Of a stretch of 62,538 nucleotides of DNA, positions 4,721-29,723 are shown piece by piece. The notes beneath the pieces are model-generated. The model searched no databases. It was not told the origin of the DNA and saw only the letters and a program-made list of their open reading frames with translations. Made by a program: the position numbers and the translations under genes. The stretch is from Sphingobacteriaceae bacterium (GTDB lineage: Bacteria; Bacteroidota; Bacteroidia; B-17B0; Aurantibacillaceae), in assembly GCA_947453445.1 (NCBI GenBank), contig CANGGP010000014.1:1-62538 (forward strand), read 5' to 3'. How positions within the stretch are numbered: the first letter of the stretch is position 1; each line of letters begins with the position of its first letter.

Positions 4721-5047
4721 GAGAGAATTTTAAATGTTGAATTTTAAATGTTGAATTTTAAATGTTGAATGGGAGGAATTAATAATTAAAAATATTGAAT
4801 TAAAAATTAAAAATGGTCTAACTGAACATTTCACATCACGATGTAATTTAAATTAGGCGGAATGGAAGTTAACTGCGAATTCCGCAATGCCAACCCGTAA
4901 CCCGTAACTCGAAATAATAAACAATTTTAAATGTTGATTTGCTGGGAATTAATAATTAAAAATTAATAATTAAAAATGAGGGGAAGGGAGATGAGAGTCA
5001 AGACGGCAAGAGTCAAGATGTGATTACGTCTGCCTGAGCAGAATGCT
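4721..5047. repeat. AT-rich dispersed intergenic repeat, array R2
   Basis: Nearly full unit. It has tandem TAAATGTTGAAT, the GGTCTAACTGAACATT block, inverted repeat ACATCACGATGT, palindrome TAATTTAAATTA, hairpin arms GCGGAAT (4857-4863) and ATTCCGC (4879-4885), and a GCCAACCCGTAACCCGTAAC tail. A second short AT block and the segment GTCAAGACGGCAAGAG follow, then a fragment of the GCCCGAC element at 5048. Confidence 0.85.
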
Positions 5048-5068
5048 GCGTTTGGGACGGAGCGCTTA
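5048..5068 (+). repeat. 5' fragment of the GCCCGAC...CGCCC intergenic element
   Basis: GCGTTTGGGACGGAGCGC matches the first bases of the fuller copy at 10981 (GCGTTAGGGACGGAATCGCG). The flank GATGTGATT...CTGC...GAATGCT is also shared. The fragment stops where the SiaC-like gene's TAA begins (5066-5068), so only the 5' end of the element is present. Confidence 0.55.
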
Positions 5069-10762: not shown

Positions 10763-10980
10763 GGAATTAATAATTAAAAATTTTGAATTAAAAATTAAAA
10801 ACGGTCTAACTGAACATTTTAGATCACGATGTAATTTAAATTAGGCGGTATGGAAGTTAACTGCGAATTCCGCAATGCCAAGCCGTAACCCGTAACTCGA
10901 AATAATAAATTATTAGAAATGATGCAAGAGTCAAGACGGCAGGAATTAGGATGTGATTGCGGCTGCATTACTGAAATGCT
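10763..10980. repeat. AT-rich dispersed intergenic repeat, array R4
   Basis: Contains GAATTAATAATT, GGTCTAACTGAACATT, TAATTTAAATTA, the hairpin (left arm GCGGTAT with one mismatch to ATTCCGC) and the GCCAAGCCGTAACCCGTAAC tail. It then runs into GTCAAGACGGCAGGAATTAGG and directly into the GCCCGAC element at 10981, the same linkage as at 4980-5060. Confidence 0.8.
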
Positions 10981-11123
10981 GCGTTAGGGACGGAATCGCG
11001 ATATTTATCGGGATTGAGCTCTTTTGCCACCGGCATTTCGAAATGTGGCAAAAAGCGAGTAGTGACGGCCCGACCGCGTGTTGGCACTCGACGGTGAAAA
11101 AGGCCAATATCGCGGGAACGCCC
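10981..11123 (+). repeat. Structured GCCCGAC...CGCCC intergenic element, copy A
   Basis: Begins GCGTTAGGGACGGA. The first hairpin is CTTTTGCCAC (11021-11030) with GTGGCAAAAAG (11045-11055), whose loop includes the palindrome ATTTCGAAAT. Then come AGTAGTGACG and GCCCGACC (11068-11075). A second, longer stem follows: CCGCG (11074-11078) with CGCGG (11111-11115) and TTGGC (11081-11085) with GCCAA (11103-11107). It ends in AACGCCC. The layout matches copy B at 29591. I recall similar sequences in other Bacteroidota genomes but cannot confirm this here. Short ORFs crossing it are not genes. Confidence 0.75.
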
Positions 11124-21421: not shown

Positions 21422-21576
21422 AATCAAAGATACTGTTTTTTGTAGCGTGTTAATGCTATAAATTGTAGCAATTAAAACAGAAGTGTTAACAAGTGTTTCG
21501 GTCCCTATAAGCCGAATGAATGCGCCCCGCAAAATAGATGCAATGATGACTTTCGATAAAAGAAGTATCATTTTTT

Positions 21577-21712
21577 GGGCGCCTGATCGGGCTGCTGCAG
21601 GCTGCGGTTTTTTGGCCGCGGAAAATTGGGCGGCCAAAAGAACCCTGCCTGCCAACCTGCGCGCATGCCTAGTATTGGCAGGCAAGCCTTCCGCATCCCG
21701 GGCGCTTCGTGA
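21577..21712 (-). repeat. Structured GCCCGAC-type intergenic element, copy C (reverse orientation)
   Basis: A GC-rich island in an AT-rich genome with two perfect 10-bp inverted repeats: TTTTGGCCGC (21610-21619) with GCGGCCAAAA (21630-21639), and TGCCTGCCAA (21646-21655) with TTGGCAGGCA (21675-21684). Read on the minus strand it starts near GGGATGCGGAA and ends CAGCAGCCCGATCAGGCGCCC (shortened here), which parallels GCGTGAGGGAT...GCGGATAGCCCGACC...CGCCC in copy B. Assignment to the same family is less certain than for copies A and B. Confidence 0.6.
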
Positions 21713-29202: not shown

Positions 29203-29590
29203 GTGTTTGTGGTTTTTTATGAATTGCTTCGGTTAATTTTTTATATCATTTTTTTTATTCACCACTCCACCGGCTTGTGCCAATGAAGACGCGGATGATA
29301 AACAAGCCTTGTGCCAATATGTAAGTAATTGAATTACAAAGTCTTAAAAAATAACGAATAGCCTTTATTTCCAAAAAATGGAATAATTTCCATATTTTTT
29401 AATCGACCAAACCAGCGAATGCTTCGTTTAAGACTTTTTTCTTAGTCTAACGGTTATTAGCTTGATGACTTAACTGAAATGTAAAAAGCTTGCAATACAA
29501 TTTGTGTGTGACGCTATTTGCTTGGTGGCCGCTTGTTTAAAAGTCAAAATGTAACAGATGCGTTGTTGGGGATATTATGGCATTTTTTTT
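29203..29590. other. AT-rich gap between small gene and structured element
   Basis: No gene seen. It holds a direct repeat of CTTGTGCCAAT (29274-29284 and 29308-29318) and the motif TTTCCAAAAAATGGAATAA (29368-29386), which recurs exactly at 54688-54706. Confidence 0.5.
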
Positions 29591-29723
29591 GCGTGAGGGA
29601 TAGTAGCGTAAATCCTTTTTGTTCCCGCTTTTTCAGCGGGACAAAAAGATTGGAGCGGATAGCCCGACCCCCATGAAGCTTTGTTCGGCTGTTGGAGAAT
29701 TAGCTTCATAGGGGGGCACGCCC
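29591..29723 (+). repeat. Structured GCCCGAC...CGCCC intergenic element, copy B
   Basis: Begins GCGTGAGGGATAGTAGCG. The first hairpin is CTTTTTGTTCCCGCT...AGCGGGACAAAAAG (29615-29648, one bulged T). Then come GGAGCGGATA and GCCCGACC (29662-29669). A long stem follows: CCCCCATGAAGCT (29668-29680) with AGCTTCATAGGGGG (29702-29715, one bulged A). It ends in CACGCCC. The layout is the same as copy A, with different sequence in the paired arms. It lies about 170 bp upstream of the FIST kinase start. Confidence 0.78.

Follow-up and report, generated by a model that had tools for sequence, protein, structure and literature searches.

Anatomy, spread and constraint of a structured intergenic element family of Bacteroidota related to the Flavo-1 motif

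The elements described here, three of which lie in the window (62,538 nucleotides of a Sphingobacteriaceae bacterium, contig CANGGP010000014.1), belong to a known motif, Flavo-1 (Rfam RF01705), of which this account gives the full anatomy, spread and constraint. We tentatively assign the window copies to an extended Flavo-1 family of intergenic elements of 74–192 nt, in which an outer stem, P1, encloses one or two arms, and our best joint explanation, to which we give slightly less than even credence, is that of a mobile DNA element selected for its structure. Its predicted fold is supported by covariation, it is dispersed and polymorphic in its insertion, it has moved as part of a MITE in one relative, and at two orthologous sites it has been retained with compensatory change.

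Flavo-1 was listed as a structured motif in 2010 (Weinberg et al. 2010, PMC2864571), Rfam classes RF01705 as an sRNA, and a 2021 transcriptome study, as far as its text was covered, could not assign it a function (PMC9723704). A literature search that covered the RF01705 papers in part returned no earlier account of the full anatomy, spread and constraint, and the portions of the Flavo-1 literature covered do not mention MITE movement, a position beside terminase genes or conservation in place. Papers matched by a text search with element motif strings look unrelated by title.

Results

Copies in the window

Copy A, a full element of subtype b (GAGCTC...GCGAG arm), occupies 10981..11123 on the forward strand and is supported by its sequence, its fold and two models, R1 and R2, described below; P1 pairs 10981-10985 with 11117-11121, P2 closes with the CCC at 11069-11071, and P3 covers approximately 11074-11115. 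Copy B, a full element of subtype a at 29591..29723 on the same strand, is supported by RF01705, R1, R2 and its fold, with P1 at 29591-29595 and 29717-29721, P2 at 29597-29665 and P3 at approximately 29668-29715. An earlier note, made from the letters of this DNA, had proposed both, and on reading the sequence all of the anchors and arms are present where it placed them. It had also proposed a reverse copy starting at 21712 and a fragment at 5048. The reverse copy, copy C, does exist (21577..21705, reverse strand, subtype c without P3, from a P1-pairing scan, its fold and R1), but its outer stem starts at 21705, where GCGCC (21705-21701) pairs with GGCGC (21583-21579). At 5048 the start of an element is indeed present on the forward strand, recognised by sequence, but only as a remnant of approximately its first 18 nt (GCGTTTGGGACGGAGCGC, 5048..5065) that neither R1 nor R2 matches. 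A 162-bp segment is duplicated with 93% identity at 4775-4936, upstream of this remnant, and at 10763-10924, upstream of copy A; this duplicated flank, the match of copy B to RF01705 and the extension of the element beyond the Rfam model were absent from the earlier note.

The MFE folds of the three copies, which were read directly and located by a scan requiring P1 pairing, agree in that P1 (GCGYN/NRCGC) encloses P2. Copies A and B are predicted to form a three-way junction composed of the outer stem P1 and the arms P2 and P3, with a symmetric GNAGCGGA-type internal loop in P2; the fold of copy C comprises P1 and P2, with P3 absent. Compared with 200 shuffles, fold z-scores were -1.62 for A, -5.16 for B and -4.74 for C, the energy of copy A being unremarkable by itself. 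Three P2 subtypes were distinguished by eye in the window's genome, namely a (GNAGCGGAAAGCCC), b (GAGCTC...GCGAG) and c (GCGAAGGG...GCAGCAGCCCG), the last of which frequently lacks P3.

Relation to the Rfam model and covariation

Copy B scores 62.3 bits with RF01705, above the gathering score (42), the match spanning 29586-29673 only, whereas copies A and C gave no Rfam match up to E 0.5 and fall short of the RF01705 gathering score. The 76-position Rfam model shares with the window family the P2 stem, the GNAGCGGA internal loop and an AAATCC...GATT arm, but it covers P2 only, lacking the 3' strand of P1 and the whole of P3. R1 was built from a 16-copy alignment, A1, and scores copies B, A and C, all three of which were in its training set, at 91.0, 78.2 and 30.5 bits, its match to copy C being limited to 21575-21666. 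R2 was built from A2, an alignment of 68 elements, all from other genomes, these being the members of a set of 112 distinct parsed elements that are at most 100 nt long and lie inside their own locus; its automatic structure contains P1 and P2 without P3. Within the window, R2 scores copy B at 62.4 bits (E 6e-14) and copy A at 21.2 bits (E 0.004), but it misses copy C. RNAalifold recovers P1 and P2 on both alignments and P3 on A1 only.

The proposal of the earlier note that pairing is kept under sequence change is borne out by these 68 elements. The A2 covariation score of the named structure is 0.168 as opposed to 0.048 in shuffled alignments (0 of 500 shuffles reach 0.168), it is at most 0.022 when partners are slid by 1–3 columns, and the lack of covariation that the note had named as contrary evidence did not occur. 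Columns 7-110 (UA 29, GC 28, AU 1, other 1), 14-78 (AU 40, UA 25, CG 1, other 2) and 25-67 (GC 45, UA 18, AU 1, other 4) covary, and the internal-loop pair 19-73 reads CG 56, TA 8, TG 2, CA 2; P3 pairs stand in 82% of A2 cells, and the named pair 26-66 is non-standard in 50 of the 68 elements. Both partners have changed in 5 of 17 pairs, no more than shuffles give (148/500). Shuffling leaves the relatedness of the sequences in place; the slid control and the in-place changes reported below are the weightier evidence. In the set of 112, derived from 136 left anchors after loss of 21 without a right end and 3 duplicates, right ends were picked without requiring pairing; x5-y5 and w1-w2 are each 94% Watson-Crick against 47% when shuffled, x4-y4 is nearly invariant (93% against 92%), and crossed pairs stay within the shuffled range. 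The predicted fold is thereby established by covariation.

Distribution

R1 finds 63 matches at E<=1 and 47 at E<=0.001 in the window's genome, its E-values there being rough and its training copies matching by construction. The further copies that the earlier note anticipated are therefore present in this genome, as they are in relatives, and the absence of copies that would have counted against it was not encountered. In a search of the order with strict filters, 36 matches at E<=0.001 were obtained in the window's genome and 0 to 48 in each of 64 others, such that 48 of 65 genomes (one family) have at least one; within the genus of the window the number ranges from none to 48 per genome. 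R2 matched 51 of 296 genomes and 30 of 146 genera across the phylum (E<=1e-4, strict filters), in agreement with the note's mention of similar sequences in other Bacteroidota. A pattern scan of named genomes yielded at least 119 stretches, by title from Bacteroidota except for two MAGs, with hosts including Flavobacterium, Mucilaginibacter, Pedobacter, Chitinophagaceae, Cytophagaceae, Bacteroidales, a Bacteroides fragilis plasmid and others. The two MAGs (L282, L295) are labelled Spirochaetes, which may reflect transfer or mis-binning. Overlap with an ORF of 150 aa or more occurs in 3 of the 112 elements, and the description of a structured intergenic family not explained by any gene holds.

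Movement and duplication

In one relative, G028, 39 loci were read, and 27 cores share GCGTGAGCGATTG, of which 24 have the same left end (by eye); the right end of the repeat is an imperfect inverted copy of approximately 26 bp. Twenty copies had both ends located by pattern, and 11 of these are bordered by target duplications matching at 7 or more of 8 bp (four perfect, one requiring a shift), whereas 500 shuffles scored alike gave a mean of 0.9 and a maximum of 4; the nine other copies include some with misplaced right ends. In G028 the element is thus carried by a mobile MITE that leaves 8-bp target duplications. These imperfect inverted ends and target duplications resemble those of MITEs of TIR transposons, and the combination of terminal inverted repeats with a fixed-length target duplication was found in the G028 subfamily only; such ends were not noticed by eye at the window copies, and elsewhere the core is conserved without them. 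The P3 arms are mosaic among G028 copies, some 3' halves being repeated. A search for an autonomous transposon with the G028 ends gave 27 end matches, the 13 listed loci either holding Flavo-1 cores or running into contig ends, and such a transposon may exist.

Elements are duplicated in tandem together with their flanks at three places in the window's genome (C2, C25 and C33). At L148:1-330 (G000 C114), a tandem array of units of approximately 80 bp, each beginning with the element left end GCGCTAGGGATTACA, precedes an intact-looking element without P3. At a second site in Flavobacterium (L257), the genes on either side of the element are methyltransferase-like and leuA-like; among 30 loci fetched, the element's anchors are present in none of the 8 relatives for which both flanks could be cut, and four of these eight hold approximately 570-680 bp of other sequence there.

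Candidate movers

The window's genome has two Y1 transposase genes, each with an element within 3 kb: one at C25:36620, approximately 1.6 kb away, and a weak match of 38.5 bits at C1:29462, approximately 2.8 kb away; the chance of both proximities, computed after the fact, is approximately 0.005. Neither gene is directly flanked by the element, both being flanked by other palindromes. The gene at L047 (G000 C25:34709-35053) encodes a 157-aa Y1 transposase amid its own palindromic repeats, CTGTTTTGCCTCTCTGAGGCAAAG and CCGGCTCCGGAGGAGCCG, a pair that is RAYT/REP-like, and there are three Flavo-1 elements at distances of 1.6 to 2.9 kb from it. At L048 (G000 C1:26379-26639) a 235-aa Y1-family gene lies between palindromes, one side carrying GGTTTCCAAAGT...ACTTTGGAAACC. 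Y1-like ORFs near elements numbered five in 1.20 Mb (L206-L336, 3 in 0.96 Mb; G028 loci, 2 in 0.16 Mb; order loci, 0 in 0.08 Mb) as against one in 1.32 Mb taken from three other genomes, counts that are few and set against an unmatched control. The proximity of Y1 genes leaves our weighting of the explanations unchanged, since the favoured explanation already includes a mover of this kind. When neighbouring genes were clustered, the largest cluster comprised 8 of 131 loci, and no cluster was transposase- or integrase-like (longest member, by eye).

REP and REPIN elements are moved by RAYT proteins (PMC3116915, PMC3686654, PMC2817692), and to judge by the parts of these papers covered, the present elements resemble them as dispersed, non-coding intergenic palindromes with short tandem arrays; copies lie near both Y1 genes of the window's genome. 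They differ in that the Y1 genes are flanked by other palindromes and in that the Flavo-1 fold is a junction and not a single hairpin. A bias in replication strand would be expected of an IS200/IS605-like mover or of a single-stranded DNA site, should the lagging-strand template be the one read, and overall none was found: 35 of 63 elements are co-directional with replication in three complete genomes, with weak and partial matches included (13 of 18 in G233 alone). The origin and terminus were placed by coding-normalised GC3 skew, with which rRNA strands agree; an apparent strand bias from runs of equal strand in G261 (scan p 0.039) vanished once they had been placed.

Constraint at orthologous sites

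In Flavobacterium an element lies between an arsC-like gene and yicC. Fifty loci were taken from a search covering 199 genomes, L441-L470 on the strength of their score and L471-L490 by hand, R2 finding the element in 15 and reading by eye adding L467; orthologous copies of 14 species (L219, L304, L442-L452 and L454) were aligned, leaving out L441 (identical to L219), L461 and L467 (a different element) and L481 (unaligned). Between pairs of these species the element is on average 0.89 identical (lowest 0.74, gap columns ignored), and 300 bp of the arsC-like gene are 0.83 identical (lowest 0.78). The flanks average 0.53 and 0.56, and the final 40 bp ahead of yicC, where the yicC promoter region lies, average 0.88. 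In some species the distal P2 stem GAGC/GCTC is exchanged for GTCTCG/CGAGAC or AGGGC/GCCCT. In L461 and L467 this intergenic region holds another, distinct element; its long P3 occurs in two versions of widely divergent sequence, both of which remain paired (by eye).

An element is also found 62-63 bp upstream of ssb (PF00436) in four species of the window's genus, G004, G008, G013 and G031, each of which has one or two matches at E<=0.001. Between G031 and the other three, identity is 0.87-0.89 for the element and 0.79-0.82 for the gene, as compared to 0.51-0.54 and 0.62-0.68 for the left and right flanks. The contrast is slight among the three closer species (element 0.91-0.94, gene 0.85-0.94, left flank 0.80-0.87). 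The internal-loop pair is GC/GC in G008, GT/AC in G004 and G013, and AT/AT in G031. At both orthologous sites, therefore, the element is conserved above its flanks and mostly above the neighbouring gene, with compensatory changes in place. A general link to SSB was considered and rejected, the ssb genes beside cellular elements representing one orthologous site only.

Phages and plasmids

Searching INPHARED phages and PLSDB plasmids with copy B by blastn gave no match. A pattern scan of viral contigs identified 12 that carry the element pattern, five of which (two near-identical) have it at the 3' end of a terminase-like gene, so called from Walker motifs seen by eye; searches gave no match to PHROGs, and none to Pfam near cut-off. 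Four terminase-like proteins were aligned and led to 45 viral loci, in 13 of which R2 finds the element (five are the seed contigs and the other eight represent about four distinct sequences); in the remaining 32 R2 finds none at E<=0.1. All 13 elements are antisense to the protein match and lie at most approximately 55 bp from its 3' end, and this fixed strand suggests a strand-specific role in that phage group. A phage protein of approximately 123 aa lies beside the element in L208, L216 and L217, and in L208 and L216 it ends in DGDLPF, which we take to be an SSB-like tail; it gave no Pfam hit and matched only PHROGs of unknown function. The Bacteroides plasmid region with the element recurs in 32 PLSDB records, of which 30 are predicted to be conjugative. 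Two of four plasmid regions read have an intact element abutting the 3' end of a recombinase gene; the other two lack the exact left anchor and keep the right part.

Gene context and wobble pairs

There is no preference in orientation relative to genes, the right neighbour being on the same strand in 42 of 92 cases and the left in 39 of 92, and the 87 classified elements divide into -- 31, ++ 25, -+ 17 and +- 14; in chromosomes the element is orientation-neutral. Cellular copies lie within 40 bp of gene 3' ends more often than of 5' ends (31/90 vs 8/92, p 2e-5), a proximity that also follows if promoters are avoided.

G-T pairs are scarce in the variable arms (7 to 1,383 Watson-Crick in 145 distinct stems, under an arm score that penalises G-T), and scarcer than in the terminator-like hairpins that these loci also contain (21 to 969 in 99 hairpins, p 0.0004), although the G-T:A-C ratio, 7:4, does not depart clearly from the 21:8 of those hairpins. 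Across 18 pairs of A2, G-T (11) and A-C (12) are equally rare. A first mismatch count (G-T 13, A-C 28, A-G 68) was dropped because it included the conserved loop. Given these caveats, near-perfect palindromes are demonstrated more than RNA is excluded, and the rarity of wobble is suggestive only as evidence for DNA.

Discussion

For a mobile, structure-selected DNA element, selection would act on folded DNA, either as a cruciform or as the top strand folded when single-stranded, and a putative trans-acting protein would recognise this through the conserved anchors (GCGYNAGGGAT, GNAGCGGA twice, AGCCCG and CGCCC), leaving the arm tips free to vary provided that inverted repeats persist. The element would spread as non-autonomous DNA, in the manner of REP/BIME or MITE sequences, and then be kept at some sites.

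That the copies are instead a structured non-coding RNA, transcribed alone or within longer transcripts and acting as folded RNA, seems to us doubtful. It accords with the Rfam classification as sRNA, with the recovery of P1 and P2 by RNAalifold on both alignments (and of P3 on one), with A-G juxtapositions as the commonest mismatch, as in non-canonical RNA pairs, and with the retention of a copy at ssb by genomes having only one or two detected. In F. psychrophilum, several transcribed 5' regions coincide with Flavo-1 hits, yet in the same study, as far as it was covered, hits fall on either strand of transcribed regions without distinction, and many fall outside such regions (PMC9723704). 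At the arsC site the left flanks share no promoter by eye, and the covarying columns 7-110, 14-78 and 25-67 contain no G-U. Orientation, 3' proximity, replication strand, wobble and the F. psychrophilum data together lean to DNA without deciding the matter.

A cis-acting 3'-end element, serving neighbouring genes as terminator or mRNA protector, is improbable: it would account for the 3' proximity of cellular copies, the position just 3' of the phage terminase-like gene and the abutment on the recombinase gene in the two plasmid regions with intact anchors, but orientation shows no preference, convergent pairs are only 14 of 87, avoidance of promoters would also give 3' proximity, and the ssb copy sits upstream of its gene. 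Integron attC sites consist of conserved boxes with variable palindromic arms, and the present elements likewise place conserved boxes around arms that are free in sequence and length. By this analogy they might be structure-recognised recombination sites, for which the tandem duplications of element and flank and the mosaic P3 arms of G028 may also speak. We judge this very improbable, as attC sites have a linked integrase gene and a uniform orientation to cassette genes, whereas no recurrent integrase-like neighbour was noticed here and no uniform orientation was found, and the duplications, which take in flanking sequence, require no site-specific enzyme.

Returning to the mobile DNA element, a broader version of it, which we think rather unlikely, is that these sequences form a phylum-wide class of folded-DNA sites whose junction is read as DNA by a putative dedicated protein, 'Flavo-1 RNA' having been misfiled. 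If true, this class would be common to chromosomes, a conjugative plasmid family and phages, would be mobile in some lineages, and at some sites would be under constraint equal to or above that on coding DNA. Some phages may use the element or exploit it, as its position beside their terminase-like gene suggests. Whether the element acts as RNA or as DNA can now be asked at definite places, given its complete anatomy, the subtypes that Rfam misses, a mobile subfamily whose ends are defined and the constrained sites at ssb and arsC-yicC.
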